Shown here one piece after another: positions 3,667 to 35,952 of a stretch of 48,431 bases of DNA (position 1 is the first letter of the stretch; every line of letters begins with the position of its first letter). Source of the DNA: a virus; the IMG/VR virus record IMGVR_UViG_3300049043_000028, positions 1 to 48,431 of that record; one strand, 5' to 3'. A model generated the notes under the pieces. That model worked only from the letters and a program-made list of their open reading frames with translations. It had not been told where the DNA came from and did not search any database. The position numbers and the translations under genes were made by a program.

Positions 3667-3951
3667 GCTTGTACTCCTGGTTTGGGATATTTTGCCTTAA
3701 CCGCGAAGCAGTCGGCAATGTATTTTGTCATCTCTTGCGCTCTGGTCAACCCTTGACCACGCCATCAAGGCAGCTCTGGTGATGGGTGGGTATTCTGCGG
3801 CACGTTTTTGTGCGTAGGTGAGTTCAGGCGGTTTTGGACGCAATGCTTCAGCTTCTTGATCTGTAACTTGAACCGAGCCTACAGGTAACAAATGAACGAA
3901 CGCATCGTCATCAAGCCAGTGCAAAGAGTTGTCGGGGGCTTTGTAGTGCAT
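3663..3951 (-). CDS. Small tail-fibre-associated protein (assembly-chaperone-like), frameshifted near C-terminus
   Basis: The rebuilt protein is about 95 residues. It starts MHYKAPDNSLHWLDDDAF, has VQVTDQEAEALR and LTYAQKRAAEYPPI, and ends LDGVVKG..MTKYIADCFAVKAKYPKPG. This pattern (KAPDNsLHwLDD, LTYAxKRxxEYP, xVKxKYPK) is typical of small proteins encoded beside fibres in many phages, annotated as tail fibre assembly or XkdW/APC-like; the role is inferred from context. A second family member lies at 6955-7234. It sits between two fibre genes with 1-4 base junctions. Confidence 0.6.
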
Positions 3952-24842: not shown

Positions 24843-25255
24843 GTGAATGGGAGTGGCCGGACTGTAACGAGAAAATATATAGGGGGCAAGCGGGGGAGGT
24901 GAGGAATCCTACCCGGGGGGTGTTGTTATAGGAAATGAATTATTTGGTCCCGTCAGAAAAAAAGTATTGGGGTACGGGGGGGTATTGTTATGAAAAGTAT
25001 GAAGTTGGGGATTGGGTGTGCAACACACTGTGTATAGCCGCCACCTCCCTTTTGCCTATTTTTGGGGTGGTGGGGTTCTTATAGATTTGATGAGAATATT
25101 CGTTTGCCCATACCCCGATATACATAGATTTATTTTTTACGATATATTTGAATTGTCCCTTATTTCGTGGTATAATATACCCATGCAAACGAGGAAGCGG
25201 TTGCATACATAACAAAAGTTATGTTTCATGTTAGAAAATTTTGAAAGGTTAGAAA
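24843..25255. other. Divergent control region between virion and early arms
   Basis: These 413 bases hold no gene. The part next to terS has runs of G on the plus strand (gggggcaagcgggggagg, acccgggggg, tacggggggg) and two TTGTTAT half-sites of the early repeat near 24924 and 24986. The part next to the early gene is AT-rich and carries the rightward promoter at 25148-25176 and a near-copy of the early repeat at 25210-25221. No leftward promoter for the packaging genes could be pinned down with confidence. Confidence 0.6.
25148..25176 (+). promoter_or_regulatory. Early promoter P1 (sigma-70 type)
   Basis: TTGAAT, a 17-base spacer ending GTGG, and TATAAT (25171-25176), with TGG just before the -10 as an extended -10. 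It shares GTGGTATAATATA with P2 and GTGGTATA with P3. It drives the first early gene. Confidence 0.85.
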
Positions 25256-25778
25256 ATGAATGCACTCAATCAAGTGAATCAAGCGGTTGTCACGCAAGTA
25301 GGTACTACCACTGTCGTCCCTCTGGCTGACTTACGCACTGACTTAGTTAAGTCAGCGAAAAAGACGGGTCAGGTTTTGAAAGCTTATGCTAGCGGTTTAG
25401 ACTCTGCCTTTGACCTTGTCGACAATGAAGGCAATGTCACTTCTAAGTGGTACGAGCTTAAGGGTAAGCTCAAAAGCGGGTATCAATGACGAACGCAAGT
25501 TATTCGTTCAGGCTTTTAAAGATGAGGGTTTTGGTGAAGCCACAATCAATGTTTACTGGCAACGGGTAAAAGAGGCGAGCGGGTATGTCACTGCGGGTAA
25601 CAGTGTAGCGGGTGGCGAGGTTGATACCGATACCAAAACCCTCGCAGAATTGAAAACCATGATTAACCGCATCTTCAAAGCAGAGGAAGCGGGCAAGGAT
25701 TGCAAGGCGTCCGAAGTCAAAGGTGAATTGATGACTGCTTACTCTATCCTCGGTGGCAACATTGACGAGTTAGGCTAA
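25256..25778 (+). CDS. First early protein, unknown function, one frameshift
   Basis: A GAAAGG site precedes the ATG. The rebuilt 172-residue product starts MNALNQVNQAVVTQVGTTTV, has KSAKKTGQVLKAYASGLDSA and YELKGKLKAGINDERKLFVQ, then FKDEGFGEATINVYWQRVKE, a linker SVAGGEVDTDTKT and KTMINRIFKAEEAGKDCKAS, ending ILGGNIDELG. The frame changes near 25470. It is mostly helical and charged, with no family recognised. As the first gene behind P1, alone between promoter and terminator, it may be a host-takeover or regulatory protein, but nothing in the sequence proves that. Confidence 0.7.
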
Positions 25779-25810: not shown

Positions 25811-25842
25811 ATAACATTTGTTATAAATCAACGGAGGGTTTT

Positions 25843-26055
25843 ATGGTTCATCATGTTTCACTCAATGTTATCAATGGCGTAAGAATTTCGACTGTTTTGC
25901 TTTGGAAGGTTCGCCCTGATGCGCCCGACTTGTATGAGACTTGTGTTTTCGAGGGTGAGGATAGTAATGTTCTCGGTCATTATGACACTGAGGGCGAAGC
26001 AATCGCAGGTCACAATCGGATACTGGCTGAATACCAAAACTTGGTCAATTCATAA
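25843..26055 (+). CDS. Small early protein, unknown function
   Basis: GGAGGG sits upstream of the ATG. Seventy residues: MVHHVSLNVINGVRISTVLL, WKVRPDAPDLYETCVFEGED, SNVLGHYDTEGEAIAGHNRI, LAEYQNLVNS. The end (yxTeGEAiaGHnril) resembles a short beta-sheet plus helix protein often seen in phage early regions, function unknown. The TAA stop is the first three bases of a copy of the early repeat. It can be read only from P1 past the hairpin or from an unseen promoter. Confidence 0.75.
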   Translation: MVHHVSLNVINGVRISTVLLWKVRPDAPDLYETCVFEGEDSNVLGHYDTEGEAIAGHNRILAEYQNLVNS

Positions 26056-26083
26056 CAATTGTTATATTTACCCTCTTAATCCT

Positions 26084-26108
26084 AAGCCCGCTTCATGCGG
26101 GCTTTTTT
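26084..26108 (+). terminator. Intrinsic terminator
   Basis: AAGCCCGC, loop TTCAT, GCGGGCTT followed by TTTT. It is a classic strong hairpin with a U-tract and closes the short transcript of the gene at 25843-26055. Confidence 0.9.
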
Positions 26109-26115
26109 GCGTCTG

Positions 26116-26150
26116 CCCATCATAACAATTGTTATGATGGGTTTTTATTT
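26116..26150 (+). terminator. Intrinsic terminator built on a copy of the early repeat
   Basis: A perfect 26-base palindrome (26116-26141, arms CCCATCATAACAA / TTGTTATGATGGG) is followed by TTTTTATTTT. Its centre is the early repeat TAACAATTGTTA (26123-26134). The same DNA can therefore be a terminator hairpin in RNA and a protein-binding site in DNA. It lies eight bases after the terminator at 26084-26108. Confidence 0.85.
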
Positions 26151-26165
26151 TGCCCGCCTATTTCA

Positions 26166-26286
26166 ACTAGACCAGTTCTCTGTGCGGGGGTAGCCACAGC
26201 TCGGTAAAGCGATACACTGCACGCAGTGTATCGTTATTTTCGGGTTTTTCTATTAGGGGAAACCCTTAGACTAGACCAGTTCTCTG
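26166..26286. repeat. Direct repeat pair flanking a hairpin
   Basis: ACTAGACCAGTTCTCTG occurs at 26166-26182 and 26270-26286, each followed by a GC-rich GCGGG..TAGCC segment. Between them a perfect inverted repeat (26210-26233, CGATACACTGC / GCAGTGTATCG with AC between) is followed by TTATTTT. The unit could be part of an origin or encode a structured RNA. Confidence 0.7.
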
Positions 26287-26460
26287 CGCGGGTAGCCCCG
26301 TCGCGTAACAAATGTTATAAAAAAAGTGTCTTTGTTACACAACACCCTTCGTAAGTCATTGATTTTAAAGCAATGTTATATGTTATAATGTTACAAGGGT
26401 AATATGAAAACCTGTTAAAACGAGTTCTTCAGCAAGTGCATTTCATCACGCCCATCTACA

Positions 26461-26477
26461 ACTTGACATTGTCAAGT
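26461..26477. promoter_or_regulatory. 17-bp palindrome ACTTGACA-T-TGTCAAGT, putative operator
   Basis: A perfect 8-1-8 inverted repeat. It overlaps the -35 box TTGACA of the promoter at 26463-26490. The same sequence, reverse-complemented in its centre, lies at 44876-44892 in the same relation to a promoter. Confidence 0.75.
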
Positions 26478-26681: not shown

Positions 26682-26710
26682 TTGACAATATTGTAACTAT
26701 GTGGTATAAT
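26682..26710 (+). promoter_or_regulatory. Early promoter P2 (consensus sigma-70)
   Basis: TTGACA, 17 bases and TATAAT: both boxes match the consensus exactly, and TGG precedes the -10. The stretch TGTAACTATGTGGTATAATA is nearly repeated in P3. A perfect early repeat (26760-26771) lies about 43 bases after the expected transcript start. Confidence 0.92.
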
Positions 26711-26790
26711 ATAAGCTGGTTGGGAGAAAACCAATTTCACCCAGCCAAAACCCAAAACATAACATTTGTTATAAATCAGAAAGGTTAGAT

Positions 26791-27048
26791 ATGTTAGACA
26801 AAGAAGTTCTCGCCATTGCATCGGGCTTGTACAGCCCACTGTTCGCAACCCAAGACTCCATCGGTGACGCATACAACTATGCCCAAAAAATCGCCAATGC
26901 GTCCGACAACCCTGCGGCTGTCATGACCGCTATCCATGTGATGCTCAACACCATTGCACAAACCATAGAAGACACAGTGCGCATCCAACACCACGCTGAT
27001 GCCGAGGCATTCATTGCATGGGCAAACCAAGAATCAAGGGAGGGATAA
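26791..27048 (+). CDS. Small early helical protein, unknown function
   Basis: First gene behind P2. GAAAGG precedes the ATG. Eighty-five residues: MLDKEVLAIASGLYSPLFAT, QDSIGDAYNYAQKIANASDN, PAAVMTAIHVMLNTIAQTIE, DTVRIQHHADAEAFIAWANQ, ESREG. It looks all-helical, with no family recognised. It is also intact. Its stop TAA forms the first three bases of the repeat at 27046. Confidence 0.75.
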   Translation: MLDKEVLAIASGLYSPLFATQDSIGDAYNYAQKIANASDNPAAVMTAIHVMLNTIAQTIEDTVRIQHHADAEAFIAWANQESREG

Positions 27049-27051
27049 CAA

Positions 27052-27290
27052 ATGTTAGACGGATGGAAAGAATGTATTGACTGGCGGTGAGCGATGTACC
27101 AACATCGCGTTACCAAGCGTTCTGCTTATTCTGCGAGCGTGACCGAGAGCACAGTGCCATGACCGAGCGCATGAGCTGGTGCATCATCCAAGAATACAGC
27201 AAGGGTAATTATCAGTTCGTTACCCCTACTTCAGCACCCACAGTGTTGAAGAACACCAACCAAAAGCACACACGAGGAGAGATGGTATGA
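27052..27290 (+). CDS. Small early protein, probably one frameshift
   Basis: The ATG lies inside the repeat at 27046. It reads MLDGWKECIDWR and then meets a stop. From a GTG at 27087 the adjacent frame continues SDVPTSRYQAFCLFCERDRE, HSAMTERMSWCIIQEYSKGN and YQFVTPTSAPTVLK. The likely reading is one protein of about 78 residues with a lost or gained base near 27088, but two separate short genes are possible. CLFCERDREH could bind a metal. It overlaps the next gene (ATGA). Confidence 0.5.
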
Positions 27291-27460: not shown

Positions 27461-27659
27461 ACACGACTACGAGAAGGCACTGAAACTGTTGCAAGCGGTG
27501 GAGATTGACCTGCGCAACTACCTGAGAAACCCAGCCGAGTACCAAGCATCGTACTTGGAAGACACGCACTGCTGTATCACCGAGGCGATGAGCTTGCTCA
27601 AAGTGGAGAGGTACGCGGGTGCTGAACGTGACTACGACTACTTTGAGATGGAGGAATAA
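27453..27659 (+). CDS. Small early protein (68 residues)
   Basis: AAGGAG lies upstream. MTEHDYEKALKLLQAVEIDL, RNYLRNPAEYQASYLEDTHC, CITEAMSLLKVERYAGAERD, YDYFEMEE. Helical and acidic. The stop TAA opens the repeat at 27657. Function unknown. Confidence 0.7.
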   Translation: MTEHDYEKALKLLQAVEIDLRNYLRNPAEYQASYLEDTHCCITEAMSLLKVERYAGAERDYDYFEMEE

Positions 27660-27662
27660 CAA

Positions 27663-27975
27663 ATGTTAGAAAAAGACAAGTGAACTGACAGGACGCGCCC
27701 TTGACTGGGCAGTGGCGCAGTGTGAACGGTTTGTTGAGGATGTGTTTGAACCATCCGAGCACTGGGGTGACGGTGGGCCGATCATTGAGAGGAGAAGATT
27801 GGTCTGCGTTGCGGTGACGGCACATGGGGCGTATCGGAAGGTAAATGGGAAGCCTCGCATCCCGAATGTCTGTATGTAGAACATGGGGCAACACCCACTC
27901 GAAGCGGCAATGCGCTGTTATGTGGCAAGCAAACTCGGCGACAGAGTCGAGATACCCGATGAACTGAAAGGATAA
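27663..27975 (+). CDS. DUF2591 (NinX-like) protein, frameshifted
   Basis: The ATG lies inside the repeat at 27657. After MLEKDK the frame changes and reads ELTGRALDWAVAQCERFVED, VFEPSEHWGDGGPIIERRRL, then WGVSEGKWEASHPECLYVEH in a second frame and ATPLEAAMRCYVASKLGDRV, EIPDELKG in a third. The blocks LtGaaLDWAVAkCE, w..GGPIIER and GxTPLxAAMRCYVASkLGdeVdvPeeL define the DUF2591 family, common in phages and prophages and of unknown function. The stop TAA opens the next repeat at 27973. Confidence 0.85.
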
Positions 27976-27978
27976 CAA

Positions 27979-28176
27979 ATGTTAGAAGGACAGAACAACA
28001 CCATCGTGGTGGAAGTCAGAGACGTGTACGGGCAATCGAAGATATACCCAGTGTGCGGGGAAGCGCAAATCTTTGCTGACATTGCGGGGACGAAAACGCT
28101 TTTGCCAGAGGACATCAAGCGCATACAGATGCTTGGGTATGAGGTAAAGGTTAGACAGAAGGAGGTTAAGTTGTGA
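27979..28176 (+). CDS. Small early protein (65 residues)
   Basis: The ATG lies inside the repeat at 27973. MLEGQNNTIVVEVRDVYGQS, KIYPVCGEAQIFADIAGTKT, LLPEDIKRIQMLGYEVKVRQ, KEVKL. A beta-alpha pattern (VVEVRDVYGQSKIYPVC) is common in small phage proteins without a known role. Its end overlaps the next GTG start. Confidence 0.72.
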   Translation: MLEGQNNTIVVEVRDVYGQSKIYPVCGEAQIFADIAGTKTLLPEDIKRIQMLGYEVKVRQKEVKL

Positions 28177-28290
28177 ACGGAGACAACTTGCGGGTGCTCT
28201 GTCGAGGACTGTTCGACACCATTGTTCAGATGGTTTTTGTCAAGGATAGATTGGATGCGGATTCTCAAGCAAATGGAGGTGAAGATATGA
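28173..28290 (+). CDS. Small early protein with GTG start, probable frameshift
   Basis: AAGGAGG precedes GTG. It reads NGDNLRVLCRGLFDTIVQMV, FVKDRLDAD and, after a frame change near 28260, ILKQMEVKI, ending in a TGA that overlaps the next ATG. Without the frame change it would run into the following gene. About 38 residues; unknown function. Confidence 0.45.
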
Positions 28291-28605
28291 GTATGCCGAC
28301 AGGGAAACAAACGATTGTCCTGCGTCAGTGGTCAAACATACGCAAGACTCAGGGAACACGTTGAGGAGTTGATTCTCAAGTTGATGGAGAACCCTGCGAC
28401 TGAGCCTGAACACTTAGCGAAAGCCCATGCTCTGTATTCGGATGTATGTGCAAGGCTGAGTGCAGTCAGTCAACATGTGAGTAATGTGATACGCACAGGG
28501 TCAACCACTGGGTTGGAGATATACGAGCGCACATGTATATGTGGGCACACGAGCAAGCAGATAAAAGGGCAGACTTTCCGTTGCCCTGATTGTGGGATGT
28601 TGTGA
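28287..28605 (+). CDS. Early protein with C-terminal zinc ribbon, one frameshift
   Basis: GGAGGTGAAGAT precedes the ATG. It starts MSMPTGKQ and after a frame change near 28315 reads SGQTYARLREHVEELILKLM, ENPATEPEHLAKAHALYSDV and CARLSAVSQHVSNVIRTGST. It ends YERTCICGHTSKQIKGQTFR and CPDCGML. CxC and CPDC form a four-cysteine zinc ribbon after a helical region. A DNA- or RNA-binding or adaptor role is possible, but no family is recognised. Confidence 0.6.
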
Positions 28606-28616
28606 GGGGATAACAA

Positions 28617-28778
28617 ATGTTAGGTAGATACTATGTGACAGGGTGGTGCGATAGGTTCAGCAACTGGGTTGCCGAGAGTATCGTAGCGAAGAACATGAAG
28701 GTGGCGAAGGAGAGGTTCAAGTTAGCCAACCCAAGCCTAAAGAAAATTAAGGCATACAAAACATTGGGAGGTGTGTGA
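28617..28778 (+). CDS. Small basic early protein (53 residues)
   Basis: The ATG lies inside the repeat at 28611. MLGRYYVTGWCDRFSNWVAE, SIVAKNMKVAKERFKLANPS, LKKIKAYKTLGGV. Basic and helical. It overlaps the next gene by one base (TGATG). No family is recognised. Confidence 0.65.
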   Translation: MLGRYYVTGWCDRFSNWVAESIVAKNMKVAKERFKLANPSLKKIKAYKTLGGV

Positions 28779-29731
28779 TGGGATACAGAACGATACTGAG
28801 AGTGGCGAAGGTGGCAACCTACGCTGAAGCATTGGCAAAGTACGAGACAACTGCGCCCATTCGTGGGCGACTGCCCAGAGGTTCGACCGTTGGGTGACAG
28901 GAAGGACTGCGACAAGTATCAGATACGCAAGAATGGAGAGGATTTTGAGCTGGTCTTGTATAAGACTGCCGTGATTACGCTCAAGCCAGGCGGTTGAGTT
29001 GTTGTGTTTACCGATGGGTTCGACACGGTGTCAACGCACCAATTCATTTCGTGGATATTGGGGTTCAATGTGCAAGGCGTGAGACGCACGACCGTGCTGA
29101 CGATCGACGGCAACAAGTACGCAATCAAGAATGGCGACAAGCTGACCTTGACCAAGGAGGACGGACGCTGGGTGGTGCATGATGCCAAGCAACAAGAACG
29201 CTGGATACTCAACCGCAAGGCGATAACAAATGTTAGGGCGAGGTACGGTGAGTTCTACAAGTACTTCAAGGCGTTTGTGAATCTGCGCACCGAGCGGGTC
29301 AAGGTTCGGTACTACACCGAGTTCGATGGGGTGGTGATACCAAGAGAGGAGTATGCGTCGTTGTTTGGTACGGTTGCAAACCTGCGTCAGTATGCGTGTA
29401 TGAACAAGCGTGGCGCACAAACTTTTGAATTGGGCTAACGTCAATCCACAACAGTACAAGGCGGCATCGGATACGTTCGAGGCATTGATTCGAGCTGACC
29501 AACCCGAGGACATGAAGCACACCAACTTCTACAAGGCCGCACTTGCCACTGGTGCTCAAGGAAGATAACGATGTGATGGACATTCGAGCGGATGAGGTGA
29601 GGGCGAAGGCAAAGCACCTTGTGCCCCTGCTGGATGAGGTGCTGTTCATGCGGTACGCCGACGAGGTATTGGTGCGGGATAAGTTGCCGATGGGTAAAGT
29701 ATCGACCAACCTGTTACGAGTCGTGCGATGA
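28778..29731 (+). CDS. Conserved phage early protein (about 315 residues), frameshifted
   Basis: It starts MGYRTILRVAKVATYAEALA. Later blocks are RPLGDRKDCDKYQIRKNGED, FELVLYKTAVITLKPGG, VFTDGFDTVSTHQFISWILG, YAIKNGDKLTLTKEDGRWVV, RYGEFYKYFKAFVNLRTERV, DTFEALIRADQPEDMKHTNF and EVRAKAKHLVPLLDEVLFMR, ending LLRVVR. The series PIRGRxPEiRPLGxRrDxdxyxIRKnGdxxExvLYkTaVvtf, STHQFxsxiLG and RYGEFYrYfKg recurs in many phages, role unknown. It carries one copy of the early repeat internally (29224), in frame. Frames change near 28870, 28995, 29435 and 29550. Confidence 0.65.
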
Positions 29732-29750
29732 AGTCACACGGATGAAACCC

Positions 29751-29831
29751 TAACAAATGTTAGGTAGCGTTTAACATGGATGAAGTCAAGCTAACAAATG
29801 TTAGGCAGCGTTTAACACAGAGGAGAAAGAG
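29751..29831 (+). repeat. Two tandem copies of an approximately 41-base unit holding the early repeat
   Basis: Unit one starts at 29751 and unit two at 29792. Each opens with TAACAAATGTTAGG, then TAGCGTTTAACA or CAGCGTTTAACA. In each, the ATG in the repeat opens a five-codon mini-ORF (Met-Leu-Gly-Ser-Val-stop). A 19-codon basic ORF (MDEVKLTNVRQRLTQRRKR, 29776-29835) also spans them and overlaps the next ATG. Part of the unit (ATGAAGTC) also appears just upstream. Confidence 0.75.
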
Positions 29832-30016
29832 ATGATTGAGTTTTCAATTGGAGAGATTGCACTGTTTTGCTGGGCCGTACTCGCTACTGGGTACGCACTT
29901 AATACAAGGCACGAGCCGAAGGCGCTGACCTGTTCATTCGGGTATTGCTCGAACGCAAGGAGGTTCGAGACAAGGTGGTGGCTGAGTTCGAGGAGTTCAA
30001 AGCAAAACAGAGCTGA
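29832..30016 (+). CDS. Small membrane protein with basic-acidic tail, frameshifted
   Basis: AGGAGAAAGAG precedes the ATG. MIEFSIGEIALFCWAVLATG and YAL form one membrane segment at residues 7-23. After a frame change near 29905 the tail reads RAEGADLFIRVLLERKEVRD and KVVAEFEEFKAKQS, a charged amphipathic helix. About 61 residues. It resembles small phage membrane proteins with a coiled tail; function unknown. Confidence 0.6.
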
Positions 30017-30020
30017 AAAC

Positions 30021-30049
30021 TCGACATATATGTAACTTTGTGGTATACT
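30021..30049 (+). promoter_or_regulatory. Early promoter P3 (sigma-70 type)
   Basis: TCGACA, 17 bases and TATACT, with TGG before the -10. The block TGTAACTTTGTGGTATACTA is a near-copy of that in P2. A perfect early repeat (30099-30110) lies about 43 bases after the expected transcript start, the same spacing as at P2. It drives the MoxR operon. Confidence 0.85.
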
Positions 30050-30132
30050 ATATATGTGAGTGTGAATTTGTCCGTGTGTTAGTTTGTTCAACCCCGCATA
30101 ACAAATGTTATGCAAATCAGGAGAGTTAGAGA

Positions 30133-31197
30133 ATGTCACGAAGTAAAGTTTGGTAAGTCAGTGACTTTGAAGCAAGCGGCAACGCTTATCCGTACCAACC
30201 CCGAAACAATCTTCCTGTTACAAGGTGAGCCGGGCATTGGTAAATCATCGCTACTCAAGCAAGTAGCAGAGGAATTGGGATACGACTATGCGTATATCGA
30301 CGTACCCAATATGGACTTGGGCGACATTGCAATGCCTGTGATCGACCACGAAACCAAGACCACACGCTATTACCCCAACGCTCGGTTCAAGGTGCATGAG
30401 AAGAAGCCTGTGGTCATCATGCTCGACGAGTACACCAAGGGTGCAGACCCTGTGAAGAACATGCTTCACCCCATGTTCGAGAAGGCCAACCCACGACTCG
30501 GTGACATTTCACTGGACACCAACACCATCGTGTTCTTGACTGGTAACTTGACGACCGACGGGGTGGGCGACTCGCTGAAACAACACAGTGCGAATCGCTT
30601 AGTACCCCTAACGATTGCCAAGCCGGACGCTGAGCAGTGGCTGGAGTGGGCTATCCCCAACGTATCGAGCCGGAGGTGTGTGCATGGGTGAGCCGATTCC
30701 CTCATGTGTTGGCAAGTTAACACCGATGGACATGGGGACAACCCCTATATCTTCAACCCCAAGAAACCCCAGAAGGCGTTCGTATCTCCACGTTCTCTAG
30801 CAACTGCAAGCAACATCGTGCGAAGCCCGTAGACACAACGACCCCGATGCAGTGATTGCGGCGTTGACTGGTGCGCTGGGTGAGTCAGGTGCGCGGGACA
30901 TGCAAGCGTACATCGAGTTCGCTGACCAACTGCCAACATGGGAGTCAACCATCGAGCATCCAAAGACTACGAAAGTACCGACAAGTCCGGGCGCTTGTGC
31001 GATTGTGGTGTTTGGCGCGATATCGCGTATCACTAAGGACACGATTGCACCGTTCATGGAATACCTAGAGCGGTTCGATGCCGAGTGGCAAGCGGTGTTC
31101 GCTATCAACATTGCCAAGGCCAAGGACAAGCAAGCGATTGCGTTCAGTTCCAAGGCGTTCAGTGATTGGGTACACCAAGAACCAAGACCTGCTGTGA
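30133..31197 (+). CDS. MoxR-type AAA+ ATPase, frameshifted
   Basis: GGAG and the ATG at 30133 give MSRSKV, then FGKSVTLKQAATLIRTNPET, IFLLQGEPGIGKSSLLKQVA and EELGYDYAYIDVPNMDLGDI. GEPGIGKSS is Walker A. PVVIMLDEYTKG is Walker B. IVFLTGNLTTDG is the sensor strand and ANRLVPLTIAKPDAEQWLEW follows the arginine-finger region. The C-terminal half has PYIFNPKKPQKAFVSPRSLA, VIAALTGALGESGARDMQAY and GAISRITKDTIAPFMEYLER. MoxR-type ATPases remodel partner complexes and are usually paired with VWA proteins. Such a gene follows at 32125, with a DUF3150-type gene at 33524. Frames change near 30150, 30665, 30700 and 31170. Confidence 0.85.
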
Positions 31198-31209
31198 GAG
31201 GGCTAACAA

Positions 31210-31506
31210 ATGTTAGGCGACTCTTTGTATGCGCCTCTGACCAACAGAGGGACGTGGCCGTTGGCATGGGAGGAAGCTGAACACCTTGAGAGAGTGCTCA
31301 GACGAATCAATATCGACTATCAAGTGGGTGCAGAACGTCGGATGTTTTCATCAGACGAGCTACCAGTGTATCGGTTTGTCTTGTTGAAGTGGAGTGAAGA
31401 CCCCATCCTACATGCACGTATTCGAAAGGAGGTGTTTGTGACCGACGATATTCAACAAATGATATCGGCGTTGAAGATGTTGATAAGTGTTGAGAAGGAG
31501 GGCTAA
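31210..31506 (+). CDS. Early protein (98 residues), unknown function
   Basis: The ATG lies inside the repeat at 31204. MLGDSLYAPLTNRGTWPLAW, EEAEHLERVLRRINIDYQVG, AERRMFSSDELPVYRFVLLK, WSEDPILHARIRKEVFVTDD, IQQMISALKMLISVEKEG. Intact, mixed alpha/beta. It lies between MoxR and the metallopeptidase/VWA gene, so it may belong to the same module, but no family is recognised. Its stop opens the repeat at 31504. Confidence 0.65.
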   Translation: MLGDSLYAPLTNRGTWPLAWEEAEHLERVLRRINIDYQVGAERRMFSSDELPVYRFVLLKWSEDPILHARIRKEVFVTDDIQQMISALKMLISVEKEG

Positions 31507-31509
31507 CAA

Positions 31510-31732
31510 GTGTTAGGCAAACAACACCGAAAGAGTATCGACCACAAAAGAATTGCGCAAGAGGTTGGAAGCACCGTACTTTGTGCAGTGGGTGACAAAG
31601 CTGGACGACAACAACCAAATCATCCGTGTGGTGGGCTACTGCGTGAGAGACAAGGATAGTTTTGGTTGGAAGACCGTGTTCTATCACGAGAGTGCACGAT
31701 GTGTGTCAGAAGATTGCAGATATGTTAAATGA
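31510..31732 (+). CDS. Small early protein with GTG start, frameshifted
   Basis: GTG inside the repeat at 31504 gives LGKQHRKSIDHK. After a frame change near 31545 come LRKRLEAPYFVQWVTKLDDN, NQIIRVVGYCVRDKDSFGWK and TVFYHESARCVSEDCRYVK. Near the end an alternative frame reads HDVCQKIADMLNEGE, which looks equally protein-like, so the exact C-terminus is open. Unknown function. Confidence 0.5.
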
Positions 31733-31743
31733 AGGAGAGAACG

Positions 31744-32085
31744 ATGGGTTACAGAAGTGATGTAGTGGCCGTGTTCTATACGAACGAACCGGATGATCTT
31801 GCGGCTATCAAGTTATTCGTAGATGAAAACATACCAGAAATCTTTAGGAATGAAGATGATATGAGTGTGTTTAGTCACGGGATTAAATTTGATTTTTCAG
31901 ATGTCAAGTGGTATCCAAGTTACCCCGACGTGAAAGCGTTTGAGGATGCGTTTAACAAGTTCGTCGAATTATCTAATTCGGAGGGGTCAAATTGGATGTG
32001 TGAGTTCGTTCGTATAGGGGAAGAATTGGAAGATATTGAATGTACGGAATCAAATGAAACCGATTCATTTGTTGCAAGTAGCTAG
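31744..32085 (+). CDS. Conserved phage protein (MGYRSDV family)
   Basis: AAGGAGAGAACG precedes the ATG. It starts MGYRSDVVAVFYTNEPDDLA and continues AIKLFVDENIPEIFRNEDDM, FDFSDVKWYPSYPDVKAFED, AFNKFVELSNSEGSNWMCEF and VRIGEELEDIECTESNETDS. The opening MGYRSDVaxxfY and the W-Y-P-x-Y-x-D-V block mark a common phage and bacterial family of unknown function. Intact, acidic, 113 residues. It is more AT-rich than its neighbours. Confidence 0.7.
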   Translation: MGYRSDVVAVFYTNEPDDLAAIKLFVDENIPEIFRNEDDMSVFSHGIKFDFSDVKWYPSYPDVKAFEDAFNKFVELSNSEGSNWMCEFVRIGEELEDIECTESNETDSFVASS

Positions 32086-32124
32086 AAGTATTCTTTGTGA
32101 TGTTTAACTTAGGAGGAATAACAA

Positions 32125-33330
32125 ATGTTAGAAGAGAGACGAGTTCAGAAGGCCAAGATCAGCTTGATGCGTAACCCCAAGTTCGCACTGCTGTCCGGCG
32201 TATTGATGGTTGGCAAGACAAGCGTGGTGGATGGACTGCCGACTGCGTGTACAACGGACGAGACGAGAAGTATGGGCGTGAGTTCGTGAAGTCACTGCGT
32301 GACCAAGAGCTAGGGTTCTTGATTGCACACGAGGCATCGCACAAGATGTATCGACACCTGGACTACATGGAAGAAACTCCATGATGAGAATCACCGACTG
32401 GCAAACCAAGCGTGTGACTACGTTATTAACCTGATGCTCAAAGACCTAGACCCAAGCGAAGCATTGATTGCTATGCCTCGCTACCCCAAGGGGCATCCGA
32501 TGGCGGGTAAGACGATGGGCTTGATCGACGAGCGATTCCGTGGCATGAACACCAAGCAAGTGTTCGACATACTCAAGGAGGAGAAAGAGGAAGGCGGTGG
32601 TGGCGAAGGTGGGGATGACTTTGACGAGCACGACTGGGGCGAGTGCCAAGACGTGACCGAGGAGGAGAAGCGTGAGCTTGAGCGTGAGATCGACCAAGCG
32701 ATACGCCAAGGCATGATGGCACGACAGAAGCTGGCTGGGTCTGGTGCAGATGGGTCAGACCGTGAGCTTGCCGACCTGATGGAGCCTAAGGTCAATTGGC
32801 GTGAGGTGTTGCGTGACTTTGTGAAATCAATCTGCAATTCCAAGGACGCATCGTCATGGCGCAGGGTTAACCGTAGGTTCTTATCCACAGGCACATACAT
32901 GCCAACGCTGATCGGTGAGAAGGTAGGCCGCTTGGTTATCGCAGTAGACACATCGGGTTCGGTGGGTGACGCTGAGCTTGCTGAGTTCTTATCCGAGGTT
33001 AAGGGTATCGCAGAAGAAGTAAACCCTGCGTGTGTGGACTTGCTGTACTGGGGTAGCGACGTGGTGGGGCATGAGACTTATGGTGACGGTGAAGCAACCA
33101 ACATCATCAACTCAACTCGACCCAAGGGTGGCGGTGGCACAAGCCCAAGCTGTGTATCAGAATATCTCAAGGAGAAGAACATCAAGCCTGAGTGCGTCAT
33201 CATCCTGACCGACGGCATGGTGGGTGACGACTGGGGTAGCGAGTGGACTGCACCTACGCTGTGGTGCATCGTGGGTGGGTGGTTCGATGGTGAAGCTGGT
33301 AACGGCAAGACCATTCATGTCAAAGACTGA
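32125..33330 (+). CDS. Metallopeptidase-like plus VWA protein (DUF2201 type), frameshifted
   Basis: The ATG lies inside the repeat at 32119. The N-terminal part reads MLEERRVQKAKISLMRNPKF and ALLSGVLMVGKT, then FLIAHEASHKMYRHLDY; HEASH is an HExxH zinc-peptidase motif. NQACDYVINLMLKDLDPSEA follows. A Gly/Glu-rich linker leads to a basic stretch (NWREVLRDFVKSICNSKDAS; WRRVNRRFLSTG) and the VWA domain: RLVIAVDTSGSVGDAELAEF with the MIDAS DxSxS, PACVDLLYWGSDVVGHETYG, STRPKGGGGTSPSCVSEYLK and VIILTDGMVGDDW. This is the two-domain DUF2201 layout, and it is partnered with the MoxR ATPase upstream. Frames change near 32240 and 32370. Confidence 0.85.
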
Positions 33331-33355
33331 GGATAACAATTGTTAGGAGAGAACT

Positions 33356-33520
33356 ATGAAAAAGTTTAGAGGTGTTATTTGTTTCCCTCTGTTTCAAGAG
33401 GTGGTAGTCGAAGCCGAGACGGAAGACGAGGCACGTGACAAGTTGGGCGATGAGTGCGATGTAAACAAAGCCTCATATGGCGACCCGTATGTGTATGACT
33501 TTGAAGAAACCAAGGAGTGA
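33356..33520 (+). CDS. Small early protein (54 residues)
   Basis: GGAGAGAAC precedes the ATG. MKKFRGVICFPLFQEVVVEA, ETEDEARDKLGDECDVNKAS, YGDPYVYDFEETKE. The layout of a beta strand, an ET-E-D-EA helix and an acidic end resembles short phage proteins with a vxxxVeAetEdEA motif. Intact. A perfect early repeat (33334) lies 11 bases before the start. Confidence 0.65.
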   Translation: MKKFRGVICFPLFQEVVVEAETEDEARDKLGDECDVNKASYGDPYVYDFEETKE

Positions 33521-33523
33521 ATC

Positions 33524-34380
33524 ATGAGTATCAGTGCATCAGCAGGTGTTAGTGGAATTGAACATCAGTGTGTGGCCTGCATCCAAGCTGGACAGAGAGG
33601 TCACGGAGAAAACCAACACCGACGCAGGCGCGGTGCGTGGGGCGAGTCAGACCAAGAAGAATCTGTTTGCAGGTACTTCACTACGCAAAGACATATCAGA
33701 CTTTGCCGCGCGTGTTCGTCTGTATCACAACAAGCACACGTTGCCGTGGGCTGACAAGGGTGAGCGCATGTTACCGACTGCATTGTTCATGGACTACAAG
33801 CAGACCATGAATGGGTTCGAGCAGACATTCAACATGATGTGTAACAACTTCTTCTTGGAGTACCCGCGTCTGGTTGCAGAAGCACCTACCAACTTAGGAG
33901 CACTGTACAAAGCTGAGGAGTACCCCGACATAACAGATGTTATGTTGAAGTTCGGATTCCGACGCACAGTCAAGCCTGTGCCCGAGGCTGGTGACTTTCG
34001 CTTAGACATACCTGCGAATGACTTAGAGGAAATGCGTGTTGAGTTCATGTCACAACAAGACCGCAAGTTAGCCGATGCTATGCGTGAGCCGTGGGATAGG
34101 TTGCACGAGATGTTGGTGGGCATGTCCAAGAAGCTGACAGATGTGGAAGGTGACGATACCAAGAAGCGGTATCACGATACGCTTATCTCCAACCCACTGG
34201 AGTTGTGTTCGTTGCTGACCAAGCTGAACATAACCAACGACCCCAAGCTGGAGGAGGCACGTCAGACAGTTGGAGTTGGCGATGATTGGCGCAGACCTTG
34301 AGAGTATCAAGGAACATGCACCTGCACGTAGTGAGTTGAAGTCCAAGGTGGACGACATTCTCAAGCGTTTTGAGTGGTAA
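33524..34380 (+). CDS. DUF3150-type protein, frameshifted near both ends
   Basis: It starts MSISASA and, after a frame change near 33545, reads VLVELNISVWPASKLDREVT, EKTNTDAGAVRGASQTKKNL, FAGTSLRKDISDFAARVRLY, HNKHTLPWADKGERMLPTAL, FMDYKQTMNGFEQTFNMMCN, PVPEAGDFRLDIPANDLEEM and SNPLELCSLLTKLNITNDPK. It ends IGADLESIKEHAPARSELKS and KVDDILKRFEW after a change near 34275. The pattern (LvxlniSxWtaxKlDrxv, HnxxTLPWxDxGxRlLPtxxF, PVPEAGDFRxD, NpxELCdLLtkLNiTnDPkL) is that of the DUF3150 family. Together with the MoxR and DUF2201 genes it forms a likely three-gene module. Confidence 0.8.
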
Positions 34381-34403
34381 TAACAATTGTTCAGGAGAAG
34401 AGC

Positions 34404-34571
34404 ATGAACGTATTTGAACTGAGCAACGTAGAACTGAACAGCAAGATGCAAACGGCACTTGCTGAAATAAAGAGGTGCACCCGAGACAGAGCCAAACGCA
34501 GAAAAGACGATACTGCCGGTCATTCAACGACTGGCTACGCTGAACCCACTGTGGACATTCGTGGGTACTGA
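34404..34571 (+). CDS. Small basic early protein (55 residues)
   Basis: AGGAGAAGAGC precedes the ATG. MNVFELSNVELNSKMQTALA, EIKRCTRDRAKRRKDDTAGH, STTGYAEPTVDIRGY. A helical basic middle. A one-mismatch early repeat at 34381 lies just upstream. No family is recognised. Confidence 0.6.
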   Translation: MNVFELSNVELNSKMQTALAEIKRCTRDRAKRRKDDTAGHSTTGYAEPTVDIRGY

Positions 34572-34596
34572 TCGTGGGTATAGCGGTAACGGTGTA

Positions 34597-35274
34597 ATGC
34601 CCATCACGGAGTTCACTGTACGAGAGCATGGGGAAGAGCTGGGCAGGATTGGTCGGCAACACTATGGTAGCAAGTATGTTATCTATGTGAGCAATGACCG
34701 CATCGCCAAGTCAAAGACACGTAGCAATGGGTATCGCACAGTAGATGCAGACAAGGCCGTACTCCATGCCAAGAAGATGTTCTTCAAACTCAAACCCAAC
34801 GAGCGTATTGAGAAGGCGACGAAGGATGCCGAGTCTGTCATCAGCACTCAAAGACGGATGAAAGACAGAGATCACTACCATGCCGAGGGCGCTATCAGGT
34901 CAGCCGCGCTGGACTTCATCATGGGAACTGGCTTTTCTTTGTTCCTTGAGCATATTAAAACACGCACAGAGTCTGAACGCGCAAAGCTAGAAAAAGCTAT
35001 GGAAGACAAGGTACGTTTGTCCGACGAAATGATGACTATTGATAAGGCCAAGTCAGCGTTCGAGAATGGTAAGACTGCACTGGTCATCAAAGATGGTGGT
35101 AAATACCTAGTGAAGATAGGTGACAAGGTGGACTTATATGATGATAATACGCTCCCCGATTGGATGCGTGGCAAGCTAGGTATGCTCAAACTTGTGCAAG
35201 CCGAGCAGTTCGTATCAGACACAGGTTGCCGAGTGAACGAAGAGACATTCGTGTTGATGGTAGAGGAGGGATAA
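34597..35274 (+). CDS. Early protein (about 225 residues), unknown function
   Basis: Start at MPITEFTVREHGEELGRIGR, or 12 codons earlier at a GTG. QHYGSKYVIYVSNDRIAKSK, TRSNGYRTVDADKAVLHAKK and MFFKLKPNERIEKATKDAES follow. A helical middle (ESERAKLEKAMEDKVRLSDE) precedes a beta-rich end with TALVIKDGGKYLVKIGDKVD. Intact, so it is one of the longest unbroken genes here. The opening resembles phage proteins with RxdGeelGxIgrxxxgxkyvixVxNdRI; no function is known. Its TAA opens the repeat at 35272. Confidence 0.68.
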   Translation: MPITEFTVREHGEELGRIGRQHYGSKYVIYVSNDRIAKSKTRSNGYRTVDADKAVLHAKKMFFKLKPNERIEKATKDAESVISTQRRMKDRDHYHAEGAIRSAALDFIMGTGFSLFLEHIKTRTESERAKLEKAMEDKVRLSDEMMTIDKAKSAFENGKTALVIKDGGKYLVKIGDKVDLYDDNTLPDWMRGKLGMLKLVQAEQFVSDTGCRVNEETFVLMVEEG

Positions 35275-35277
35275 CAA

Positions 35278-35831
35278 ATGTTAGATGACATGTTGAAAAT
35301 GAAACTGCTCATAGAGCACAGGCCGTGGAGAACGAGCCTGCACTTTGAGGAGTGGGTGGACAAGGACACCAAGTATCGGTGTCGTGTCAAACGCAACCCG
35401 AGAACACTAACTCTGTGTGGGTATGTCTCAGTACCCGCAGGGCACAAACTCCGTGGCATGACCTACGACGAAGCAGAAAGGCATGGAGTATCGGCGCATG
35501 GTGGGTTCGACATACTCTGATGTTGAAGATAGGCGTAAGTGGTTCGGGTTCGACTGTGCTCATGCAGGTGACTTGATACCACTTTTGCACATGCGGGATG
35601 TTGCTGAAGGTATAACTTATCCCTTTAATGTGGTGAAAGAAACATACCGCACGTTCGAGTGGGTCAAGAAGCAGAGACGGCTAAGTTGGCCGACTCGCTT
35701 GCGAGGGCAGATGAATATATCCGCAACGATGAGATCATGTCAGCGGCTAAGGCGGCTATGCGTGGTGGTACGAGCGTAACCGACGAGCTTGCTAAACGTG
35801 GGTATGTTCCCGCAAAAAGAAGAAGGGATAA
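35278..35831 (+). CDS. Conserved early protein (about 180 residues), frameshifted
   Basis: The ATG lies inside the repeat at 35272. MLDDMLKMKLLIEHRPWRTS, LHFEEWVDKDTKYRCRVKRN, LTLCGYVSVPAGHKLRGMTY and VSAHGGF are followed, after a frame change near 35515, by TYSDVEDRRKWFGFDCAHAG, DLIPLLHMRD, GITYPFNVVKETYRTFEWVK and ETAKLADSLARADEYIRNDE. It ends GTSVTDELAKRGYVPAKK. The core GYVsVPaGHxLxGxxYdd..HGGfTys and WFGFDCaHaGD is shared by many phage and bacterial proteins of unknown function. The stop forms the start of the repeat at 35829. Confidence 0.65.
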
Positions 35832-35834
35832 CAA

Positions 35835-35952
35835 ATGTTATGGGATGTACTTGTGACAGTAAGCCCTAATGGGGTTTGGTGCAGTGGCATTGATTGCTAT
35901 CTGCGGTCTGATTGGTTGGGCGATATTCTTTTTACAGAATGAGGGACGATGA
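35835..35952 (+). CDS. Tiny membrane protein, frameshifted
   Basis: The ATG lies inside the repeat at 35829. MLWDVLVT and, after frame changes near 35865, MGFGAVALIAICGLIGWAIF, FLQNEGR. One strong membrane segment in about 38 residues. Without frame repair the first frame would give an unrelated short peptide, so the call rests on the hydrophobic reading. Confidence 0.45.

Follow-up and report, generated by a model that had tools for sequence, protein, structure and literature searches.

In the IMG/VR virus record IMGVR_UViG_3300049043_000028, the second of two tandem hairpins (T2) appears to be a back-up intrinsic terminator built around a palindromic operator. This is the reading that we favour, with moderate confidence, together with the proposals that the dyad repeats to which this operator belongs are bound by a regulator which the phage itself encodes, most probably in its first early gene, and that this regulator would act mainly as a roadblock. 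The role of T2 as a back-up intrinsic terminator is supported by the features of the sequence, and protein-regulated termination at T2 is possible. The window is the whole stretch of DNA that was analysed (48,431 nt, positions 1 to 48,431 of the record). T1 and T2 close a short unit made up of the first early gene and a 70-aa gene, which would be the first early transcription unit, encoding the candidate regulator and one small protein:

25256..25778, + strand: first early gene (about 170 aa), encoding the candidate cognate regulator; interrupted by a frameshift near 25480 here, unbroken in the relatives
25843..26055, + strand: small second gene of the regulator unit (ORF), 70 aa, ends in a dyad
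26084..26108, + strand: T1, predicted first intrinsic terminator, AAGCCCGCTTCATGCGGGCTTTTTT; G+C-rich, conserved in relatives
26116..26141, + strand: T2 stem-loop, predicted second terminator, perfect 26-bp palindrome CCCATCATAACAATTGTTATGATGGG (26115-26142 including the outer G.T pair)
26123..26134, no strand assigned: copy of the dyad (putative operator), TAACAATTGTTA, forming the core of T2
26142..26151, + strand: T-tail of T2, TTTTTATTTT, directly after the palindrome

As the preliminary description of this DNA had claimed, the palindrome was perfect over 26 bp and was followed by a T-rich tail, and the repeat at its centre was a genuine copy of TAACAWWTGTTA. No other perfect palindrome without a spacer in the window had arms of more than 7 bp. 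The RNA of T2 was predicted to fold into one hairpin of 12 bp at -18.2 kcal/mol (z -5.7); only 5 pairs of the stem are G-C, and none of 200 shuffled sequences was as stable. A stable RNA hairpin directly before a T/U-rich tract is the pattern by which an intrinsic terminator is recognised, and it was found at T2. The earlier proposal of an intrinsic terminator containing a putative binding site was thus upheld as regards a credible hairpin around the repeat, from which we infer termination itself. The distance from the first terminator had been given as 8 bases, but seven were counted (26109-26115) between the last T of T1 and the palindrome. Rfam searches gave no match at gathering thresholds in the window and no convincing match in the intergenic region, and the exact 26-mer was absent from the viral contigs searched, including all 62 related loci.

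On the 3' side of T1 and T2 lie two CCAGTTC elements, another dyad, and promoter-like sites at 26463 and 26682. The two copies of the CCAGTTC element, ACTAGACCAGTTCTCTGYGCGGG(GG)TAGCC, are located at 26166-26195 and 26270-26299, between two dyads, and almost all relatives, distant ones included, had at least one related copy in the corresponding position. At 26463-26476, the -35 region of the promoter-like site is itself a dyad, TTGACATTGTCAAG, and related dyads were present in G001, G002 and G004.

The relatives examined were 62 viral loci obtained by a search with the DUF2201 (VWA/metallopeptidase) protein of the window, with protein identities of 53-92%; the phage collection contained no direct nucleotide relatives of the window. 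For most of the relatives bearing T1, a dyad was found close after it, and in 7 of the 8 relatives of the window's clade this dyad was contained in a hairpin with a T-rich tail. The arms of T2 differed among these relatives (CCCGTCA in L011, CCCAATC in L016, AGCTATTTA in L010 and AAGGGC in L014), and they were short in L020. Within genomes, the outer arms paired in 57 of 64 cells, a count that leaves out L006, whose arms are lost, compared to 37.0 ± 4.9 with shuffled partners (1 of 2000 shuffles was as high) and 21-31 when the arms were slid. Conservation of the palindrome outside the repeat, on which the preliminary description had made its case depend, was therefore observed, the arms being kept in close relatives via compensatory changes. 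Among 578 distinct dyads from 63 sequences, only 9 had arms of at least 4 and a T-rich tail, and 6 of these were T2 orthologues, the window included. The covariation of the arms, and the rarity of T-tailed dyads elsewhere, indicate that the T2 hairpin has been kept as a hairpin. In L006 a palindrome resembling parS (the ParB site), TGTTTCACGTGAAACA, occupies the place of the hairpin's left arm beside the dyad (approximately 3798-3814). Dyads just 3' of the regulator gene were also located within long hairpins in L046 (at 4792, arms of 9) and L060 (at 4668, arms of 7), which suggests that the dyad-in-hairpin arrangement may have arisen more than once.

The core of T2 was not uniform. It exactly matched the main dyad class of the genome in the window, L005, L010, L014 and L020, while L011 retained the hairpin and T-tail with an off-consensus core (TAACTTTTGTTA), and L016 and L019 retained them with a spacer-1 core in mainly spacer-2 genomes. 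Outside the window's clade, a dyad was present at the same place without a T-tailed hairpin. As hairpins with off-class cores occur in three relatives, and dyads without the hairpin in other clades, the operator and the terminator are separable elements that coincide here. The three relatives with a broken core or a core of the wrong spacer fit an alternative to which we give a lesser but real chance, namely that T2 is a plain back-up terminator, in which the hairpin is under selection and the palindromic operator was mere raw material whose binding is no longer needed. Tandem terminators are common in phages and can exist without regulation. Selection on the hairpin by itself, however, would leave unexplained the exact main-class cores of the window and four relatives, as well as the persistence of the dyad at this site in other clades. 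In the reading that we favour, T2 would have formed in the window's clade around a pre-existing operator, by the gain of complementary arms and a T-tract.

A stronger role for the protein, in which dyad-bound regulator raises or lowers termination at T2, so that the regulator unit is autoregulated or transcription reads through into the operon that follows, is considered unlikely. The exact coincidence of operator and terminator at the end of the candidate regulator's unit would suit such control, as would the hairpin-like dyads of L046 and L060, but the combination is conserved in one clade only, which itself includes off-class cores, and T1, lying upstream, would already halt most polymerases. 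In the back-up terminator model, the bound protein could strengthen termination at T2, and the hairpin should work without it.

The dyad TAACAWWTGTTA (TAACA-N2-TGTTA) was present in the window in 24 copies with no more than 1 mismatch, compared to 0.33 expected by chance, and 22 of the 24 were located among the early genes at 25.2-35.8 kb. The centre of the dyad is not palindromic, and both AA and TT were seen on the + strand. A frequent layout was a Shine-Dalgarno sequence followed by TAACAAATGTTA, the ATG of which is a candidate start codon; the arrangement at 27046-27057, with a Shine-Dalgarno-like GGAGGG and an ATG-containing dyad, was repeated at many later copies. The following dyads and promoter-like sites were identified in the sequence in addition to the T2 core:

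25148..25176, + strand: promoter-like site of the regulator unit, TTGAAT-17-TATAAT, with TG before the -10
25210..25221, no strand assigned: variant dyad TAACAAAAGTTA, located 5' of the candidate regulator gene and 34 nt beyond the -10 box at the 25148-25176 site
25812..25823, no strand assigned: dyad TAACATTTGTTA, closely following the candidate regulator gene on its 3' side
26053..26064, no strand assigned: dyad TAACAATTGTTA over the stop codon of the 70-aa gene
26306..26317, no strand assigned: dyad TAACAAATGTTA after the two CCAGTTC elements
26682..26710, + strand: perfect-consensus promoter-like site, TTGACA-17-TATAAT
26760..26771, no strand assigned: dyad TAACATTTGTTA, following the -10 box of the 26682-26710 site at a distance of 50 nt
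27046..27057, + strand: dyad TAACAAATGTTA, preceded by a Shine-Dalgarno-like GGAGGG and including a candidate ATG start
27657..35840, + strand: 15 more dyads, at 27657, 27973, 28611, 29224, 29751, 29792, 30099, 31204, 31504, 32119, 33334, 33931, 34381, 35272 and 35829

Every one of the 62 loci had at least three copies of one dyad class. The half-site TAACA was found with a spacer of 2 in 32 loci, of 1 in 17 and of 3 in 7, whereas five loci had TCACA-N1 and one had TGACA-N2. For 50 of the 62 loci, no copy of any other class was counted. Clearly mixed loci were L005/G001, L007, L016, L017, L019 and L055, with spacers 2 and 3 occurring together in L005/G001 and L007, and in G008 and G019 spacer-1 and spacer-3 sites were observed beside the regulator gene. 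The use of one sequence and spacing version throughout most genomes points to a putative phage regulator that has not been described.

The placement of 295 sites was assessed in the genomes of 18 relatives, some of them near-copies of each other, with genes from a simple in-house caller. On this basis, gene interiors were poor in dyads (44 observed, 220 expected), and + starts and the 60 nt 5' of them were rich in dyads (135 observed, 24 expected). A predicted start lay inside the dyad at 54 of the 295 sites, the remainder being distributed over leaders, intergenic positions and terminators. The dyad regions of 12 genomes contained 27 promoter-like sites of the TTGACW-17-TATAAT type, and 25 of these were followed by a dyad at a distance of 41-86 nt from the -10 box, mostly 47-54 nt; a dyad some 50 nt past the -10 falls within the transcribed leader. 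As most dyads are found at gene starts or shortly past early promoters, in transcribed DNA, a bound dimer would mainly be a roadblock to RNA polymerase. According to our proposal, the first-gene product would occupy some two dozen palindromic DNA sites as a dimer and obstruct polymerase at gene starts and in leaders, and early transcription would be shut down in this way.

An ATG was present at the half-site junction in 348 of the 578 distinct dyads, and many sites overlap Shine-Dalgarno or start regions. Both observations would also be expected if the repeats acted in RNA, as translational operators at start codons, with T2 as an RNA-protein site. This explanation is judged improbable, as the window dyads other than the T2 core folded weakly with 8-nt flanks (-0.6 to -9.9 kcal/mol), a spacer of 1 allows a stem of no more than 4 bp, and many sites are located away from starts. 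In addition, compensatory changes between the core halves were not in excess, as 8 were counted where 7.2 were expected, and half-sites and spacing vary together across the sites of a genome, which makes a DNA-binding protein likelier than an RNA-binding one. The preliminary description had allowed for either type of protein acting on T2, and it is the former that is retained here. A homodimer on double-stranded DNA would be expected to give rise to such a pattern, in which the two halves switch symmetrically and the spacer stays fixed. The region at 26-27 kb is AT-rich, with many single half-sites, and the GC skew turns positive from about 27 kb, features which might indicate that the dyads are replication-origin or partition sites around this intergenic region. 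However, the sites are spread over 10 kb, at gene starts and in promoter leaders, unlike a clustered iteron array, and such a function seems very improbable.

The first early gene and a conserved gene adjoining the terminase large subunit are divergently oriented, and the former had the same position in the loci reaching that far. Of 27 loci, 26 had a dyad in the 250 nt on the 5' side of the first early gene, and 24 had one in the 120 nt that follow its stop. When 63 protein families of G004 were compared, the first early gene was the one complete family that clearly followed spacer class over core relatedness: the G004 protein was nearer to those of distant phages of the same class (G012 and G014) than to those of closer phages of another class (G006 and G009). 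Changes of dyad-class label numbered 6 on the regulator tree and 6 on the core-protein tree, and as these counts are equal, the support for class tracking rests on the G004 family contrast. Tracking of the dyad class by the regulator gene is thus suggestive, not conclusive. Structure models of two distant members were both essentially all-helical (pLDDT 77.5 and 82.7), with no fold match in PDB for either model and none in BFVD for the first. Searches of Pfam and PHROGs gave nothing significant for this protein, in which no DNA-binding domain was recognised, and several members of the family are acidic. In L049 (2050-3793), a locus with spacer-1 dyads only, two tandem diverged copies of the regulator gene were present.

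Another protein might bind the dyads, either the 79-aa XRE-type HTH protein of the phage or a Crp/Fnr-type regulator of the host. The HTH protein was present in 18 of 19 genomes, with weak Pfam HTH matches, and the 12-mer core TAACATTTGTTA is identical to the core of the PrfA box of Listeria hly. On the other hand, the HTH segment (SRMTVYNWF or SRMTIYNWF) was almost unchanged across genomes with TAACA dyads of spacer 1, 2 and 3 and with TCACA dyads, its gene was outside the class-tracking families, and a host factor would hardly explain spacer switches between phages approximately 80-90% identical in the marker protein. No Crp/Fnr match was found among the early proteins scanned, which represented part of the genes, and a literature search with the repeat sequences returned only unrelated papers and the PrfA box, a likeness that we take as coincidence. 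A binder of either kind is considered quite unlikely, and the product of the first early gene remains our preferred candidate.

The terminase, PolA and first early genes were all frame-broken in the window, and the many frame breaks of this record are probably sequencing indel errors. An alternative genetic code was considered for the short ORFs and rejected, as coding density under table 11 was approximately 0.9 in the relatives, compared to 0.50 in the window. Evidence of a prophage or host in bacterial genomes was limited to one 4.5-kb contig in a Burkholderiaceae MAG, which had no dyads.

Dispersed phage dyads, such as those of Cluster O, were previously reported without a known partner protein. 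In the phages studied here, close relatives have interchangeable dyad classes that one gene family follows, so that the question of the partner is now directly testable, by cross-binding between a handful of small proteins and a handful of short DNAs. The change of spacing among 1, 2 and 3 bp at a dozen or more sites per genome represents an unusual natural experiment in the co-evolution of specificity and site. In its most far-reaching form, which we regard as speculative and unlikely, the proposal would be that a stoperator-like network silences the early operon in widespread uncultured phages through a regulator of new fold, that its specificity switches genome-wide in half-site and in spacing (1, 2 or 3 bp) with replacement of the regulator gene, and that the operator at the end of the unit forms a protein-gated terminator.

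The Cluster A stoperators (L5, TipsytheTRex) of temperate phages are 13-mers that lack symmetry and follow the direction of transcription, and a repressor with an HTH domain binds them as a monomer (PMC9283540). The dyads described here resemble them in the many dispersed sites in transcribed DNA, in the would-be roadblock or termination role and in recognition that diverges between relatives, but they are symmetric, and asymmetric oriented sites of the stoperator type were not what was found. The proteins that were scanned gave no recognisable repressor or integrase family. In Cluster K, SAS/ESAS repeats are located at translation starts of non-structural genes, and the SAS is asymmetric and occupies the ribosome-binding site (PMC3203893). 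The presence of repeats at starts is common to both systems, and the inverted-repeat consensus of the ESAS also varies between relatives; unlike the SAS, the dyad is symmetric and frequently includes the start codon, and further copies are placed in leaders and at terminators. The Planktothrix phage Pag-Yong1 (OL906435.1, L127), a distant terminase relative with AAA/VWA-like genes, had 22 copies of GTTCA-N3-TGAAC. Its first gene had no detectable similarity to the candidate regulator and its half-site is different, but, as in the window, its dyads are located both 5' and 3' of the first early gene.

Among described cases, the dyad array of the Cluster O mycobacteriophages (Corndog) comes closest, with more than 30 identical 17-bp dyads, TGTTCGG-N3-CCGAACA, per genome. 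Many of these are intergenic and they are concentrated in one operon; the centre is variable, often AAA/TTT, and no integrase was found. They were reported as one family in five close phages, with no known function and no cognate protein proposed (PMC4351075). The window likewise has many copies of one dyad, most of them within a single early region, and the sites of its relatives avoid gene interiors. In contrast to the 7-bp arms and N3 centre of Cluster O, the half-site here is TAACA with a spacer of 2, and the dyads of these phages, unlike those of Cluster O, fall into spacer and half-site classes.
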